Shown here: positions 53,101 through 62,665 of the stretch, one piece after another | Position numbering within the stretch: the first letter of the stretch is position 1 | Layout: every line of letters starts with the position of its first letter | NCBI GenBank assembly: GCA_937959265.1 | Contig: CALGMA010000022.1 | Span: 62,001-126,000 of the forward strand | Source of the DNA: an uncultured Anaerolineae bacterium | GTDB lineage: Bacteria; Chloroflexota; Anaerolineae; J036; Brachytrichaceae | Direction of reading: 5' to 3' | Length of the DNA stretch: 64,000 nt | Translations under genes and position numbers: made by a program | Notes under the pieces: generated by a model | Told to the model about the DNA's origin: nothing | Database searches by the model: none | What the model saw: only the letters and a program-made list of their open reading frames with translations

Positions 53101-55911
<2,811 letters not shown>

Positions 55912-56079: not shown

Positions 56080-56796
56080 TCACTGCGCCAGCGTCGGGCG
56101 CGGCTGGACGACAATGCGCCAGCAGGCGACATCATCAAGCGGCACGTTGGTAAAATGCACCAGGCCGGTATGGTCGGTTTCGCCGCGAAAGCTCTGTTCA
56201 GCGGTCTCCAGGAACACCGTGCTGCCAGCCTGGTCGAACGGGTCAGCATCGGGCAGTTCGATGCAGATCCGTACCAGGCCCTGCTCGTCATCCTCATCCG
56301 GCGCGAGCACCTCAACAGTGATGTGCGGGTCGTCGTCGCTGGTTTGCGGAACGGTATACGTATAGCGCAGGCGCAGGCCGACGGCGCGGGTCAGGGCGGG
56401 CGGGCGCATAAGGGCCAGCAGCGGTTCGGAGAACTGGACCACGATCAGGTCGAGAAAGCGAGCAACCGTCGATTGAACGCCGGAAGCCGCTGCGGCCAGG
56501 GCGCCCAGCGGCGCAGGTGGAGTGCGCAGGAAGCTCAGGTCGGGCACGGGCGGCTCGGGGAAGCTGACCGCTTCGTGGCCGTAGAGCGCCTCCAGGGTGG
56601 CGCGCAACGCCTCGGCCTCTGTGCGACAACTGGCGCAGCCTTCCAGGTGCGCCCCGACCTCGCGTAGCGTCGTTGTAAGTGGCTGCCCAAGCAGCACTGC
56701 TGTTACGTATTCGGGAAGAATGGCCAGCACCTGAAGATGAAAGGCGGTGCTGTCGCCCTTCGCCAGGCCATCACCATACGCGGCCCCAGGTTCCAT
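56080..56796 (-). CDS. Soluble zinc-binding anti-sigma-like protein with C-terminal beta domain
   Basis: A 238-aa protein with an AAAGGA site upstream. Residues about 45-60 contain the anti-sigma zinc motif H-x3-C-x2-C ('HLEGCASC'). A helical middle follows (to about 140). A beta-rich C-terminal domain of about 95 residues ('ITVEVLAPDEDDEQGLVRIC', 'SFRGETDHTGLVHFTNVPLD', 'CWRIVVQP') resembles carboxypeptidase-regulatory-like folds. No membrane segment is present, so it is cytoplasmic. It follows the sigma-factor gene by 69 bases and probably restrains it. The C-terminal domain may be a sensing or cleavage target. Confidence 0.75.
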   Translation of the reverse strand: MEPGAAYGDGLAKGDSTAFHLQVLAILPEYVTAVLLGQPLTTTLREVGAHLEGCASCRTEAEALRATLEALYGHEAVSFPEPPVPDLSFLRTPPAPLGALAAAASGVQSTVARFLDLIVVQFSEPLLALMRPPALTRAVGLRLRYTYTVPQTSDDDPHITVEVLAPDEDDEQGLVRICIELPDADPFDQAGSTVFLETAEQSFRGETDHTGLVHFTNVPLDDVACWRIVVQPRPTLAQ

Positions 56797-56865
56797 TCCG
56801 TGTATCCTTTCTCTGCCCCGGGAGGGCGTCGCCCTCCGGGATCAGCCTATCAAGCAGGGGTAGTG

Positions 56866-57657
56866 TCAGGACGCCCATTTCAAATCCAGTCCCCAATCCC
56901 GCGCCAGTTCTTGCCATACCGGCGAGGCGCGCAACTGGTTCAGGCCCCGCGAGCGCAGCACGTGCACACTGGCGATCGGCCTGGCCATGTATGTGCTGAT
57001 CGTCTCATCATCCAGACCGGCGATAAACTTTAGCCAGACGGCCTCCAACTGGCGCCGTGCGCGTGGTTGCTGGCGCAGCAACTCGTCAAAACAGGCCCGC
57101 ACCTGCTGGCGCAGATCGGCGCGTATGGCCCCCTGCTCCGGGTCGCCATGCTCGGCGACCATCTGTCGCTCGTCCAGGAGTTCCAGGGGCAGGGCTACTG
57201 GCAGTCTGGTCCACAAAGGGCGCAGGACGTTGCGCAGTTCCAGCGCTGCGATGGCCAGAAAGGCCCCCGGTGTATGGTAGCTGTCCAGCTTTTTCCAGAT
57301 GCGCAGCAGGGTTTCGTTCACGGCCTCGGCCCGCACATCCGGCGCCAGATCGGCGCTTTCGCGAAAGGAAAGCCCATACAGGTAACGGTGCAACTCGGTG
57401 AACCCGAGGTTCTGACGCTCGGGGCCCTCATCGCCCCGACACGCGCCGTAGAGGCACTGGCAGTACACGTTGATCGCCGCCCGCCACAGGTCCGTCACCT
57501 CGCTGCGCAAGACGCTTGCCTCAGTCCGCCGTGTGAACTCGTCAACGCTGAGGAGTTGCCAGCCGAACCGTTCTATCACCCGGATTACGGTCTGACGACA
57601 CTGCTCACGCACATCATTCTCGGTCACACCCTTGTCGTCGAAGACGCCCTCGGTCAT
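56866..57657 (-). CDS. ECF-type RNA polymerase sigma factor
   Basis: The protein has 263 aa from ATG 57657 (the longer open frame overlaps the neighbouring gene). Region sigma-2 is recognisable at about 100-165: 'DVRAEAVNETLLRIWKKLDS' followed by 'PGAFLAIAALELRNVLRP'. Region sigma-4 is at about 205-250: 'RRQLEAVWLKFIAGLDDETI' then 'ASVHVLRSRGLNQLR', the helix-turn-helix for -35 recognition. An unusual N-terminal extension of about 70 residues precedes sigma-2. It lies between the zincin-like gene (73 bases upstream) and the anti-sigma-like gene. Its regulon is unknown. Confidence 0.82.
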   Translation of the reverse strand: MTEGVFDDKGVTENDVREQCRQTVIRVIERFGWQLLSVDEFTRRTEASVLRSEVTDLWRAAINVYCQCLYGACRGDEGPERQNLGFTELHRYLYGLSFRESADLAPDVRAEAVNETLLRIWKKLDSYHTPGAFLAIAALELRNVLRPLWTRLPVALPLELLDERQMVAEHGDPEQGAIRADLRQQVRACFDELLRQQPRARRQLEAVWLKFIAGLDDETISTYMARPIASVHVLRSRGLNQLRASPVWQELARDWGLDLKWAS

Positions 57658-57730
57658 GGGGGGAGTCGCACCTTCAGCTAGGGCGTCGCATTGCAGCGCA
57701 GGCCCGTCTTCTAACCATGGAGCCGGGATG

Positions 57731-59845
57731 TTAGCCGCCAGGGGTCCAGTAGATCCGGTAGCGTTCAACCGGAGGCGCCCCTCGTTCACCGGTCAGCGAC
57801 GGGGCGGTTCCCAGGCCCTTCTGGAGCGGGAGTGCCACGTAGGGGAGCGCAGGCGCGTAGGTGACGTGCAATGTCCAGCGTTGCTCCTGCGTGTCCCAGC
57901 GGTAGATCAACAGATCGCCGCGGCGCTCGCGCGCGTCCCGGTCATAGTATAAAACAAGGGTGGCGGTATAATCCATAAGTAACACATTACTGGCAAGGCT
58001 AAAGATGTAACTTCGCGCCTCGGCGCCTTCGGGGAGGCGCTGTGCGCCTCCGATCAGGGTGGTGGTGACGATGCGCACCTGTTCGTCTTTGTCAGGTGGC
58101 GCGTCGGGAGCAGGCGAGGGCCGTGGCTGGCGGTTGTCCGGCTCGACAAAGAAGAGCATAGCGTTGCCCTCGGCGGAGCCGGCAGTGATCGGCAGGCGCC
58201 CGCCGGTGGTTGAGTTTGGCCCGCCGCCCTGCGAGTAACTGGCGACGAAAAAGGCGTCATCGGCCCAGCGCAGCAGCACGTGGCCATCGAGGTGCGGTAC
58301 GGGGCGCGCCTCGGTGATCAGTGCAGCGGCATCAAGGTCGCGCAGCGCCAGAGGCGCGAGCGGAGCGTGGGGGCCGCAGGGGTAAATCTGTACGGCGTCG
58401 GGCTTCGGCCCATGCGCTTCGATCCGCGCCGCTACGGCCACCGGGTCGCGCGCGGCGCCTTCCACCGACTGCGGCAGCACGTCCACAAAGAAGGGCCGAT
58501 CCAGCCCCGGCGGGGTAGCGTCGCCCCAGGCGAGCCGGGCCAACGCGCGCTGCCTCGGCGCTGCCGGGGTCGCCGGGGCCACGAAGCTGGCCCGCTGTAC
58601 CCGCAGCGCGTCGTCGATCTGGCTGATGAGCAGGAGTTCGTCGCCGGTTTCGGCCCCGAAAAGGTGAAAGCCCTCGCGCTGATCGGCCGTGGAGACCTTG
58701 CCCTGGGCGATCAGCCCGCGGGGCATGCCGTCCTCGCCCCGAGGTTTGAGCACGTAGAGCCAGTGGGCCGTGTCGGGGCGCCGGGCCGAACCGGCCATCG
58801 CCCGCGCCAGTGGCTCGGCCAGGTCGAGGTACGCTTCCTGAGCCTGGTCCAGGCTGATGCCGACACCGGCGTGGTAGCGTGGCGCGGGAAGGTCCACGAA
58901 GACCGGCAGGGGCAGGGGCAGGGCCAGCGGCCCCTCCATCGGGCGCTGATCCCAGGGGTCATCGGCGGGCAGGAGCGGAAAATTGGCCCGCAGGGTCTCG
59001 AAGATCGCGCGCCAGGGCGGCAGTTCGCTGATCTGGGTGGCGGCCATCACACTGGCATCCACCGGCAGGGCCACCCGAGGCAGCGCCGCCCTGACCGCCG
59101 TCGCGCCCTTCGGCGCCCGTTCGCTCACCTGCCAGCGCCGCTGGCGTCCGCGCTGGACAAGTGTGGTATCCTCCAGATACCCGTCGTTGATGTTGAGCGC
59201 GTAGTGGCCCCACTCGTGGATCAGCGCCCGGTACCCCTCCGGCGCGTCCCAGGTCGAAAGGAGACCCGGGTCCTTCTGCCAGATGCCGCGGCCAACCCGA
59301 ATGCTCTTGAACTTGCGGCCCTCGTGCAAGCCGTTGTTCCAGGCGCGGGGATGCACCCGGTTCGAGGCCAGCACCTGGATGTCGGCGCCGTCAAGCAGGG
59401 CCGGCCCGCCGATGACGACCTGGCCGAAGGCCATGTAGCCGTTGGTCACATCGTAGAGGAAATCCGAGGCCCGTCGCATAGCAACGCGGATCTGCTGGTA
59501 GGTGGCCGCCGAGGGTTGCCATTCGAGGGCCACGATCACGTTAAATAGATACAGCACTGATCGGAACAACGGCTCGCCGTTGATCGCCGTCAGTGATCGG
59601 GCGCGTTCGTCGGGTGAGTAGGCCAGCCACTTCTCACGGAAGGGCGCCGAGTCGGGAAGGGCGCCGGGTTGGTCGAGCAAAGCGGGATCAGCGCGAACGA
59701 AGGCTTCCTGCTGGGTCGCGGTACGCTCCGCATTCGCGCTGTGCAGATAGGTGAGCCTGACCGCCTTGCAGCCCGCCGCCGCCTCACCGTGGCTGGCCGC
59801 GTCGAACTGGAAAGGCAGGTCCAGGAGATAGCGCTCGTCATCCAT
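57731..59845 (-). CDS. Large HEWGH zincin-like metalloprotease protein
   Basis: The protein has 704 aa from ATG 59845, with a GGAG site 8 bases upstream. The open frame extends far beyond, but that part overlaps the divergent gene and is antisense. The zinc motif is 'HEWGHYALNINDGY': His210, Glu211, His214 and probable third ligand Asp221. This HExxH-x6-D-x-Y spacing is also seen in CLCA-type peptidases. Upstream segments 'FLYDVTNGYMAFGQVVIGG' and 'GRGIWQKDPG' frame the site. The C-terminal half is beta-rich. There is no signal peptide, so it may act inside the cell or exit by another route. Confidence 0.78.
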   Translation of the reverse strand: MDDERYLLDLPFQFDAASHGEAAAGCKAVRLTYLHSANAERTATQQEAFVRADPALLDQPGALPDSAPFREKWLAYSPDERARSLTAINGEPLFRSVLYLFNVIVALEWQPSAATYQQIRVAMRRASDFLYDVTNGYMAFGQVVIGGPALLDGADIQVLASNRVHPRAWNNGLHEGRKFKSIRVGRGIWQKDPGLLSTWDAPEGYRALIHEWGHYALNINDGYLEDTTLVQRGRQRRWQVSERAPKGATAVRAALPRVALPVDASVMAATQISELPPWRAIFETLRANFPLLPADDPWDQRPMEGPLALPLPLPVFVDLPAPRYHAGVGISLDQAQEAYLDLAEPLARAMAGSARRPDTAHWLYVLKPRGEDGMPRGLIAQGKVSTADQREGFHLFGAETGDELLLISQIDDALRVQRASFVAPATPAAPRQRALARLAWGDATPPGLDRPFFVDVLPQSVEGAARDPVAVAARIEAHGPKPDAVQIYPCGPHAPLAPLALRDLDAAALITEARPVPHLDGHVLLRWADDAFFVASYSQGGGPNSTTGGRLPITAGSAEGNAMLFFVEPDNRQPRPSPAPDAPPDKDEQVRIVTTTLIGGAQRLPEGAEARSYIFSLASNVLLMDYTATLVLYYDRDARERRGDLLIYRWDTQEQRWTLHVTYAPALPYVALPLQKGLGTAPSLTGERGAPPVERYRIYWTPGG

Positions 59846-59959
59846 GGAGATTCTCCGATCTGAAGGGTTGCCCGCCCATGCCTCGTGAGGTCTGGGTTGC
59901 CCGGTTACCCGGTTACATCCTGCGAGGCTCAGTCCTGCCACACCCTCCGGCAGGCAGAG

Positions 59960-59986
59960 GGGTGGAGAGACCTGGTTTCCCCACCC
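59960..59986. repeat. Near-perfect palindrome in the divergent CHAT/zincin control region
   Basis: GGGTGGAGAGACC-T-GGTTTCCCCACCC pairs at 11 of 13 positions. It sits in the 213-base gap (59846-60058) between the divergent zincin-like and CHAT genes. Nearby, CCCGGTTA is repeated (CCCGGTTACCCGGTTA, about 59899-59914) and CTGCC-N9-GGCAG forms a further stem. It may be a regulator site or a dispersed intergenic repeat; no promoter hexamers stand out. Confidence 0.5.
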
Positions 59987-60058
59987 TCCTCCAAACGGCG
60001 CGTTCGGCGACTTCGTGTATCCTCGCAGCCAGGTGTAAACCATCCACACGAGTGTGCC

Positions 60059-62665
60059 ATGTCTGGTTCCACATCGCTCGACATCGTGCGTTGCGCCATC
60101 TTTGAACACTTCGATCGGGCCATGCTGTGCGCCGTGCTCGAACTCGACAATGACAGGGCGCAGGCGGTACTGGTACGGGCAGAGATTGAACGTATCGGGC
60201 CCGACCTTTTCGCACCGCGCTTTGAGGCCCGGCGCGAGTTGCTGGCACGCCTGCGAGCCGAGGCCGCCCCCGAGGAGCGCGCGTTGCACCAGCGGGCCTT
60301 TAACCACCTGATGGATCGTCTGGCCAATACGGGCGCGAACGCCCCCTGGCTCATGGCGGCCTGTCTGCACCACCTGGAGGCCCTGCGCGACCTGAACCTG
60401 GACTACATGCGCTGGCACGAGGTGAGCGCAATGATCGCCCGCGTGCGCACCCTGGCTCGTGCATGCGAACCGGATCACGCTGATCGACTGGCGCTGCTCG
60501 AAGCGTACCATGCTTTCCGCCAGCAGGCGTATGCGCAGAGTGAGCAGATCATCGAGCAACTCCTGCATCGCGCCGATCTGCCCCCGCGCCGGCGCGGCGA
60601 GGCGCTGGTAACGCGCGGCCTCTGTGCGATGAACCAGGCCCGCAACGAGGCCGCGCTCGCCGACTTCGCGGAAGCGGAGGCCCTCGGTGTAGCCGCCGAC
60701 GATGCGGCGCTGCAGGCCCGTGCCCTGGTGAACGCCAGTTGCGTGTACAATCTGCTCCATCGCTTCGAGCGCGCCCTGGAGTTGAGCGATCGCGGGTTGG
60801 CCCATTACCGCCAGGCGGGTGATCTCTACGGCGCCGCCTTTGCGCTCTATATGCGCGCCAACAATGCGCTCTACCTGGGGCGCTGGGAACCAGCCATCGC
60901 CGACCTGGACCAGGCCGCGGCGATCTACCACGCTGCGGGGATGCAGGCCCGCCTGGCCTCGATCGACTGGGCGCGCGGCTTTCTGCATCAACTGCTCGGC
61001 AACGAGGCGGAGAGCCTGGCAGCCTACGAGCGCGCCCTGGTGATTGCCACCTCCGCCGAGCATGGTAATGCCGTCCTCGCCGCTGACATCTTCACCGAAC
61101 TGGGTCTGATCTACCAGTTGCAGGATCGCTGGGATGATGCCGAAGCGGCCTTCCGCCGGGCGATCGCGCTCCAGGAGGAGTTGGGGAACACGCTGGGCCA
61201 GGCCCTGCTGATGCACCGCCACGCCCAGTTCCTTGACCGCCGCGGCGCCCGCAGGGCCGCCCTGGCCACCCTGCGCGAGGCCGTTGATCTGCTGGAAACC
61301 TTGCGCGTCGCGACCTATGCCGAAGACCTGAAGATCAGCCTGCTGGGCACTGCCGAACAGGTGTATGAAACCATCATCCTGACCTACCTGGAGCAGGGCG
61401 ATACCGAGAGCGCCTTTGCCTACGTCGAGCGGGCGCGGGCGCGCGCCTTTCTCGACCTGGTGGCGCGCCGTGATGCACCGGACGGTACGCTTGCGCAACG
61501 GCCCACCGTCACCCTGTCCGATGTGCAAGGCTGCATCGCCTCCAACGCCCTGGTGCTCGAATACTTCTGCATCGGCGTGCTGCCGCCCGGCGACTCCTTC
61601 ATGGCGCGCATCCCTTCTACCAACACCCGGCTGCGCGATCTCGTGCGCCCGCAGCCGGAGATCCTGCTCTTTGCCATTACCCGTGAGACGGTTCAGGTGC
61701 AACGGATCGCCTTCGATCCGAACCTGCTGCGCCCGCCGGCCAACGACCCGACGCCGGGGTGGCGCCTGGTGACGCAACGCAAGCTGCGCTGGATGTACGA
61801 CCGGCTGATTGCCCCGATCGAGAGCCTCCTGATCAGTTGCGCCGTGGTCCATCTTGTTCCCCATGGGCCGTTGCACTACGTTCCCTTTGCTGCCCTGGCA
61901 ACTCCGCGGGGTGGCGCCCTGCTCGACGCCGCCGGGCCGGCCCTGACCTTCGCGCCCAGCGCCACAGTGCTCTGCGACTGCCTGGCGCGACCCCCAGGCG
62001 CCGGAACGATGAGCCTCGCCCTGGGGTACAACTATCGGGACGAGGCGCGGCTGTTTCTGGCCGAGCACGAGGTCCAGATCGTCGGGGCGATGCTCGATGC
62101 CCGGGTGATTGTTGGCGATCCGGCCAAGCGCGCCGACCTGTTCGCCTCCGGCCCCGACCTGCGCTGCCTGCATATCGCTGGCCATGCTGTGTATCGGGCC
62201 AGCGATCCGCTTGGTTCCTACCTCTGCCTGGGCGCCGATGACAACCTCGATGCCCGCACGCTGATGAGCGAGTTGCAACTGCGCGATACCCTGGTGACGC
62301 TGAACGCCTGTACCTCGGGCCTCAGCCAGGTGGCCTCCGGGGATGAGTTGCTCGGGTTGCCGCGGGCTTTCCTCTACGCCGGCGCAGCGACGATTGTCTG
62401 CGCGCTCCACGAGATTGACGATATCGCTGCCTACGTTCTTATGGTATTGTTCTACACGAATCTTGCAGTGGGAGCATCGCCCGCTGAAGCCATTCATCAG
62501 GCGCAACTCGCGCTCCGCGATTCGGATCGAGAAACGGTAGTGGCCCTGCTGCAACGTTCAGGCGCCGCAACCCCCCAGGCCCTCGCGGCCCTGGAAGGCT
62601 ATGACCGGCATCCCTTCGCGCATCCACGGTTCTGGGCCGCGTTTATGCTGGTTGGAAAACCCTAG
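60059..62665 (+). CDS. TPR-CHAT caspase-like protease protein
   Basis: The protein has 868 aa from ATG 60059. TPR repeats fill roughly residues 140-480 (for example 'ALYLGRWEPAIADLDQAAAI', 'YQLQDRWDDAEAAFRRAIAL'), ending in the typical CHAT linker 'AFAYVERARARAFLDL'. The C-terminal CHAT domain (about 590-868) has the catalytic dyad: His709 in 'LHIAGHAVYRA' and Cys751 in 'LVTLNACTSGLS'. It is therefore likely an active cysteine protease triggered through the TPRs. It is divergent from the zincin, sigma and anti-sigma genes, which suggests one regulated system. Confidence 0.88.
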   Translation: MSGSTSLDIVRCAIFEHFDRAMLCAVLELDNDRAQAVLVRAEIERIGPDLFAPRFEARRELLARLRAEAAPEERALHQRAFNHLMDRLANTGANAPWLMAACLHHLEALRDLNLDYMRWHEVSAMIARVRTLARACEPDHADRLALLEAYHAFRQQAYAQSEQIIEQLLHRADLPPRRRGEALVTRGLCAMNQARNEAALADFAEAEALGVAADDAALQARALVNASCVYNLLHRFERALELSDRGLAHYRQAGDLYGAAFALYMRANNALYLGRWEPAIADLDQAAAIYHAAGMQARLASIDWARGFLHQLLGNEAESLAAYERALVIATSAEHGNAVLAADIFTELGLIYQLQDRWDDAEAAFRRAIALQEELGNTLGQALLMHRHAQFLDRRGARRAALATLREAVDLLETLRVATYAEDLKISLLGTAEQVYETIILTYLEQGDTESAFAYVERARARAFLDLVARRDAPDGTLAQRPTVTLSDVQGCIASNALVLEYFCIGVLPPGDSFMARIPSTNTRLRDLVRPQPEILLFAITRETVQVQRIAFDPNLLRPPANDPTPGWRLVTQRKLRWMYDRLIAPIESLLISCAVVHLVPHGPLHYVPFAALATPRGGALLDAAGPALTFAPSATVLCDCLARPPGAGTMSLALGYNYRDEARLFLAEHEVQIVGAMLDARVIVGDPAKRADLFASGPDLRCLHIAGHAVYRASDPLGSYLCLGADDNLDARTLMSELQLRDTLVTLNACTSGLSQVASGDELLGLPRAFLYAGAATIVCALHEIDDIAAYVLMVLFYTNLAVGASPAEAIHQAQLALRDSDRETVVALLQRSGAATPQALAALEGYDRHPFAHPRFWAAFMLVGKP

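Follow-up and report, generated by a model that had tools for sequence, protein, structure and literature searches.

The window considered here, a 64,000-nucleotide stretch of the genome of an uncultured Anaerolineae bacterium (Chloroflexota; J036; Brachytrichaceae; assembly GCA_937959265.1, contig CALGMA010000022.1, positions 62,001-126,000 of the forward strand), carries at its positions 56,080-62,665 four genes encoding a TPR-CHAT protease, a zincin-like protein designated by its HEWGH motif, a divergent ECF-type sigma factor and an anti-sigma-like protein. These four genes form a conserved cluster in Chloroflexota. The most economical reading of the cluster, which we hold with moderate confidence, is that of a Cas-free proteolytic switch in which the CHAT protease would cut the anti-sigma-like protein and so free the sigma factor. 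This reading is the most economical because CHAT is a conserved intracellular protease that would share the cytoplasm with the anti-sigma-like protein, and because precedents exist: Csx29 cleaves the CASP-sigma inhibitor Csx30 (PMC10028731), and CalpL cuts the anti-sigma factor CalpT (PMC11417357).

In the proposed switch, the ZAS domain of the anti-sigma-like protein would hold the sigma factor at rest; a signal sensed by the TPR part would activate CHAT; CHAT would cut the anti-sigma-like protein, most likely in or near a PxLxFL linker or in a C-terminal beta-sandwich; and the released sigma factor would drive a regulon. A linked peptidase, the HEWGH protein here and a subtilase in sister modules, would serve as the response effector, predicted to be exported in most aligned relatives and cytoplasmic in the window's clade. 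To our knowledge, bacterial CHAT proteases have few known substrates, and these clusters point to a concrete candidate, the anti-sigma-like protein. The clusters also lend themselves to a simple reporter assay across many independent CHAT proteins, of which a single genome supplies four; the modules would offer the protease-sigma arm of Craspase a plausible non-CRISPR ancestor, and protease-sigma pairs may be of use for synthetic circuits.

The CHAT protease and its linkage to sigma factor genes

The identity of the CHAT protein is certain. From its ATG start it spans 868 residues (60059-62665, plus strand), matches PF12770 at E 7.8e-52 with 176.9 bits against a cut-off of 24, and matches TPR_12 at E 2.2e-15; a PDB sequence search likewise returned TPR proteins. 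The reading frame extends back to a GTG at 59885, and 868-residue open reading frames with the same ATG start occur in L232 and L234 (L-numbers denote the loci compared). The intact His709/Cys751 dyad of the original prediction is present with this start (codons 62183-62185 and 62309-62311) in the contexts AGHAVY and NACTSG, and is kept by 24 of 25 aligned CHAT proteins, which amount to 24 distinct sequences (L035 and L215 are one); the 25th, L220, has lost it to a contig end. By domain and dyad the protein belongs with the CHAT peptidases, and proteolytic activity is predicted.

The recurrence of the neighbourhood in related genomes, on which the original prediction was staked, was borne out: in an initial pass through 60 relatives, these genes turned up side by side in further families. 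CHAT genes were then sought regardless of their neighbours in these relatives and the window's own genome (61 genomes) at E <= 1e-10, with gene calls in relatives made by a longest-ORF (open reading frame) heuristic, so that single gene lengths there may be off. Such CHATs occur in 35 of the 60 relatives and, counting the window's genome, at 108 places, of which 107 were used (G047:C635:8442 lies outside the stretches examined). We distinguish strong CHATs (E <= 1.3e-43; n=42), a split set after seeing the data, and count as evaluable those with at least 1.5 kb upstream, namely 33 of the 42 strong CHATs and 51 weaker ones. A sigma gene lies within 2.6 kb of 25 of the 33 evaluable strong CHATs vs 6 of the 51 evaluable weaker ones, and three of the nine non-evaluable strong CHATs also have one. 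The loci counted here also supplied the sequences of the sigma profile, and so the fairer number is the near/far comparison made with one sigma profile, which gives 29 matches in 183 kb beside strong CHATs vs 10 in 839 kb examined elsewhere.

Of the 28 sigma-linked strong CHATs, 22 have their nearest sigma gene on the same strand, 677-1369 bp upstream, and the gene between the two is often anti-sigma-like with a beta-sandwich-like C-terminus. Among 22 same-strand genes of 180-320 residues upstream of CHAT, chosen solely for position and length among the first 48 CHAT places (two of them, in L061 and L068, are unlike anti-sigma proteins), 12 carry the Hx3Cx2C zinc motif.

All four genes of the window are maintained under purifying selection, as judged by ratios of nonsynonymous to synonymous substitution rates (dN/dS) of 0.18-0.26 relative to L231 and L234, whose aligned pieces share 77-89% DNA identity with the window: 0.199 and 0.209 for the sigma gene, 0.205 and 0.26 for the anti-sigma gene, 0.195 and 0.184 for the HEWGH gene, and 0.177 for CHAT, which was compared with L234 only. 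Values relative to L232 (0.13-0.35, undefined for the anti-sigma gene) were not used because very few changes underlie them.

The sigma factor and its putative inhibitor

The sigma gene lies on the minus strand at 56866-57657 and encodes 263 residues from an ATG that is also usable in L231, L232 and L234; the frame is open upstream to a GTG at 57789. The protein matches its relatives' profile, built on these same loci, at E 1e-31. Among the relatives, the L181 and L215 proteins pass the TIGR02937 cut-off and the L215 and L229 proteins that of Pfam Sigma70_r2, whereas those of L235 and L232 are without any Pfam match. The gene is taken to encode an ECF-type sigma factor, as first proposed, and a divergent one; both it and the anti-sigma-like protein, themselves below the library cut-offs, owe their names to relatives, because some of these pass the cut-offs and profiles connect them.

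The anti-sigma-like protein (238 residues; 56080-56796, minus strand) was modelled by AlphaFold2 from 21 sequences, with a mean predicted local distance difference test score (pLDDT) of 79.9, as a three-helix domain (helices 14-35, 42-53 and 55-72), a linker and an Ig-like beta-sandwich (strands 111-231). Its Hx3Cx2C motif (His50, Cys54, Cys57; 56626-56649, minus strand) is kept in 19 of the 21 aligned relatives, the window included. The linker carries a P-x-L-x-F-L motif (residues 85-90; 56527-56544, minus strand), the L-x-F-L part of which is kept in 20 of the 21, including two without zinc ligands; in the model it sits in a short helix near the low-confidence stretches 75-79 and 105-109. 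The homologues at L221:5773-6555 and L223:2655-3401 are without Hx3Cx2C ligands and retain the LxFL motif. The protein looks soluble, because its top 19-residue hydropathy is 1.61 and no aligned member exceeds 1.75; the description of a soluble zinc-binding anti-sigma-like protein thus stands, by hydropathy and by the presence of the motif.

In ZAS domains, the second sigma contact, that of helix 4, is with sigma 2. A coevolution study of these domains assigns the binding of sigma 4 to helix 1 and a second contact to helix 4 (PMC7406223), and so the linker motif may dock the sigma factor; a CHAT-recognition element is the other candidate role. With an Hx3Cx2C motif, which defines ZAS proteins (PMC7406223), a helical domain, an adjoining ECF gene and a soluble character, the protein has the features of class I (ZAS) anti-sigma factors. 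In Pfam, a 252-residue relative in L066 reaches the zf-HC2 cut-off, and the L181 protein finds no match.

The same motif opens another explanation, which we judge unlikely, if the most serious of the rivals: the anti-sigma-like protein would itself be the sensor, oxidation of its Hx3Cx2C zinc site would free the sigma factor in the manner of ChrR or RsrA, and CHAT and the HEWGH protein would be outputs of the sigma factor, for example cell-damage effectors. That the motif persists in 19 of the 21 relatives aligned fits such a role, as does the description of soluble ZAS proteins as normally responsive to oxidative stress (PMC8999054; similarly PMC7406223). However, the two relatives without ligands still keep the linker motif, and Hx3Cx2C is missing from 10 of the 22 upstream genes, including those of five subtilase modules (L030, L031, L056, L062 and L063).

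Several results weigh against proteolytic release of the sigma factor by CHAT. The 10 upstream genes just mentioned count here as well, as do the 8 of 33 evaluable strong CHATs without a sigma gene within 2.6 kb, and the loci L225, L228, L236 and L238, in which CHAT and HEWGH genes adjoin with no sigma or anti-sigma gene despite at least 3 kb behind CHAT. The window's own proteins stay under the Pfam and NCBIfam cut-offs, the sigma factor matching Sigma70_r4_2 at E 0.058 and the anti-sigma-like protein zf-HC2 at E 0.005. In a PDB sequence search, the anti-sigma profile matches RsiW weakly (E 0.22), and the relationship between window-type and subtilase-module anti-sigma proteins is weakly supported, hhalign giving a probability of 48 over 77 columns. 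Csx30 is absent among the 50 Foldseek matches listed for the anti-sigma model, which gave Ig-like designs and noise and nothing with E <= 0.001. Finally, in 13 related loci no bipartite motif was found that the sigma promoter shares with the CHAT/HEWGH region (within-locus mean 11.31 vs cross-locus mean 11.35, p 0.71; the window, L230, L231, L232 and L234 were omitted, as were duplicate copies of records). Autoregulation through a shared promoter motif was rejected on this test.

The HEWGH protein, the subtilases and the CHAT tree

One scan of the named genomes with a HEWGH profile gave 33 loci. In 24 of these a CHAT gene lies on the opposite strand, separated by 0-2 open reading frames; in L231 the contig ends after the TPR part of the gene, which was recognized by DNA match, and in L220 the gene is truncated. 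Sigma and anti-sigma genes are also present in 16 of the 24, and four further HEWGH-CHAT loci lie at a contig edge (L216, L220, L222 and L233), L222 with its anti-sigma gene present. The nine loci without CHAT (L209, L210, L211, L214, L219, L237, L239, L240 and L241), some on short contigs, include every match not named as Chloroflexota or one of its groups except L222, a short Gracilibacteria contig with CHAT. In that metagenome-assembled contig the CHAT-HEWGH-anti-sigma cluster may reflect a binning error. A sigma gene but no CHAT accompanies the HEWGH-family gene in the stretches at L182:8574-9173 and L240. From a separate list of about 126 places, 40 were examined, mostly the best-scoring, and these overlap the 33-locus set (L175 and L213, for example, are a single record); nine have CHAT, seven of the nine with sigma and anti-sigma genes, and several without CHAT lie on contigs of 3-6 kb.

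In the usual order, the sigma and anti-sigma genes are convergent with CHAT, which is divergent from the HEWGH gene. In the window, the HEWGH, sigma and anti-sigma genes stand in a row on the minus strand, divergent from CHAT on the plus strand across an intergenic region at 59846-60058. All four genes were found where the original prediction had placed them, with coordinates refined. That the window's arrangement is unlike most of its relatives, with the sigma and anti-sigma genes behind the HEWGH gene and not behind CHAT, might be taken to mean that the four are chance neighbours without joint function. We regard this as extremely improbable: the linkage counts disfavour it, conserved clusters occur across many families, and the window's order recurs in L231, L232 and L234, of which L232 is hardly independent because it is 97% identical to the window. 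The order recurs with one gene inserted in L230.

The HEWGH gene (57731-59845, minus strand) encodes 704 residues from an ATG preceded by GGAG, a start that is usable in L231, L232 and L234. No Pfam or NCBIfam model matched the protein; among its relatives, L175 has only PKD domains in Pfam, and those of L175 and L174 match nothing in NCBIfam. In an alignment of 24 HEWGH proteins, in which L232 is not included, H210, E211, W212, H214, Y215, L217, D221 and Y223 are invariant, and all 24 thus carry the HExxH zinc motif of zincin metallopeptidases, which in the window forms part of HEWGHYALNIND (His210, Glu211, His214, Asp221; 59183-59218, minus strand). The AlphaFold2 model has a mean pLDDT of 66.7, with the catalytic region poorly resolved, and a zincin is absent among the 50 Foldseek matches listed, none of which has E <= 0.001. 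A designed trefoil that matched the protein at E 0.002 in a PDB sequence search was taken as chance. The homologue in L036 (G056:C1:3147000-3165500) has an in-frame stop.

An export-type hydrophobic segment occupies the N-terminus of 17 of the 24 aligned HEWGH proteins (hydropathy 1.72-2.75). The other seven, the window's clade, are without one (highest N-terminal hydropathy 0.29-1.12), and the window-clade protein is predicted to be cytoplasmic. Because 17 of the 24 look exported, we take the HEWGH protein as a linked effector, and the proposal that it is a substrate of CHAT is unlikely in general, though possible for the minority clade of the window. A reading in which CHAT acts on the HEWGH protein, to activate or destroy it, and the sigma and anti-sigma pair only controls expression of both, would account for their being divergent neighbours in 24 of 33 loci, four of them with no sigma gene in reach, and would place both proteins in the cytoplasm in the window's clade. 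It is nevertheless improbable, given the export-type N-termini of the majority and the persistence of the link between CHAT and sigma genes in 14 subtilase modules. The converse assignment, in which the HEWGH protein rather than CHAT degrades the anti-sigma-like protein, draws on the conserved HExxH and on the lack of an export segment in the window's clade. We think it highly unlikely, since an export-type N-terminus is found where the soluble anti-sigma-like protein is kept (L175, L177 and L181) and neither model nor fold search confirmed a zincin fold.

In the HEWGH and subtilase versions alike, the soluble anti-sigma-like protein and CHAT are the parts predicted to lie in the cytoplasm with the sigma factor. 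A subtilase gene lies within 3 kb downstream on the same strand in 14 of the 28 sigma-linked strong CHATs vs 1 of 59 unlinked weaker ones, and all six of the downstream genes searched with Pfam encode Peptidase_S8, including that of L067, whose CHAT has no sigma match. The window's genome holds four modules, three of them subtilase modules on other contigs (C4, C31 and C41, the last with its sigma gene cut by the contig end); at the window locus CHAT is present, there is no subtilase, and the HEWGH protein stands in the subtilase's place. By inspection, 8 of the 14 subtilases have an N-terminal hydrophobic segment, the same split as among HEWGH proteins.

A CHAT tree of 81 domains, built by a quick method and rooted at the midpoint, places 24 of 27 HEWGH-linked CHATs in one group together with L038, which is cut by a contig end; support is 92, below the 95 mark. 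The window's CHAT falls in a set of seven, the same set whose HEWGH proteins are without an export segment. Because the HEWGH-linked CHATs of L192, L199 and L208 fall elsewhere, the partnership of CHAT and HEWGH proteins has changed more than once. A further CHAT subgroup without a sigma gene within 2.6 kb stands beside a protein of about 1000 residues (L033:8088-10670, on contig C8 of the window's genome, L072 and L073) and lies near L071, L199 and L208 in the tree. The HEWGH family also occurs beside another TPR signalling protein, a protein of about 1400 residues that combines guanylate/adenylate cyclase, AAA and TPR domains and takes the place of CHAT in all three loci tested (L194:5800-9999, L204:10386-14537 and L037:2929-7107).

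Next to the anti-sigma gene, a large open reading frame at 53101-55911, which we take to be valyl-tRNA synthetase, encodes a protein found at the same place in L232. Rfam matched nothing in the 44-64 kb part of the window.

Comparison with CRISPR-associated and other known systems

The statement that no CRISPR array or Cas gene is nearby was upheld. No repeat family with more than two copies within 120 bases occurs in the whole 64-kb window (an earlier repeat search of 44-64 kb had shown the largest 20 among 60 or more families), and the window's genome, at 94% completeness, gave no match to a RAMP gene (Cas7-type, PF03787). A CRISPR link was rejected on these two results, arrays elsewhere in the genome not having been sought. 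The suggestion that the regulon serves defence found no support in PADLOC, which left four of five proteins unmatched and gave CHAT a weak TPR match at E 0.007; a defence system was rejected accordingly.

CLCA metalloproteases carry the motif HExxHx6DE. HEWGH relatives share its spacing in HEWGHYALFLYDEY, but no Pfam CLCA match was obtained, the window has DGY where the motif calls for DEY, and the HEWGH fold is modelled poorly.

Of the systems already in print, three come close to the modules described here: CHAT and subtilase genes beside ECF54 sigma factors, Craspase, and CalpL/CalpT/CalpS. Full-text searches of an open library, in which subscription papers are mostly missing, turned up no paper recognizably about the version with CHAT, sigma factor, ZAS anti-sigma and HEWGH protein. 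The idea as originally stated is less new, since a 2022 review describes CHAT and subtilase proteins as conserved parts of the ECF54 sigma-factor context, with Geodermatophilus as an example, and notes an existing proposal of proteolytic control; the domains it names for these contexts are CHAT, subtilase and a carboxypeptidase type (PMC8999054). The subtilase modules described here look, by gene context, to be of the same kind. What sets the clusters here apart is a ZAS anti-sigma-like protein and, in the branch to which the window belongs, the HEWGH protein in place of the subtilase. In CalpL/CalpT/CalpS, a type III CRISPR system, a protease likewise cuts an anti-sigma factor bound to an ECF sigma factor (PMC11417357); there the protease is of the Lon type with a SAVED sensor and a cyclic oligoadenylate signal, in contrast to the TPR-CHAT protein here.

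The closest comparison is with Craspase. The 48 places that a Csx29 profile finds at E <= 0.001 in the 61 genomes comprise 39 of the 42 strong CHATs, as against 9 of the 65 remaining ones; none exceeds its cut-off of 300, the window scoring 22.3 bits and the best of the 61 genomes 77.7. This enrichment is not independent of CHAT strength, because any CHAT profile favours canonical CHATs; it lends support, short of proof, to kinship with Csx29 and is consistent with an origin of Csx29 in the sigma-linked class. We offer tentatively, as a possibility rather than an expectation, the broader view that Cas-free CHAT-gated sigma switches are widespread, with interchangeable peptidase effectors that are exported or cytosolic, and that the Csx29-Csx30-sigma arm of type III-E systems was recruited from them, the TPR input giving way to RNA recognition by Cas7-11. 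Craspase (Csx29, Csx30 and CASP-sigma) and the window's cluster have in common a TPR-CHAT protein beside an ECF-type sigma factor and its inhibitor, a putative one in our case; the cluster differs from Craspase in having no RAMP match in its genome, an inhibitor built of a ZAS domain and a beta-sandwich, and an extra peptidase-like gene.

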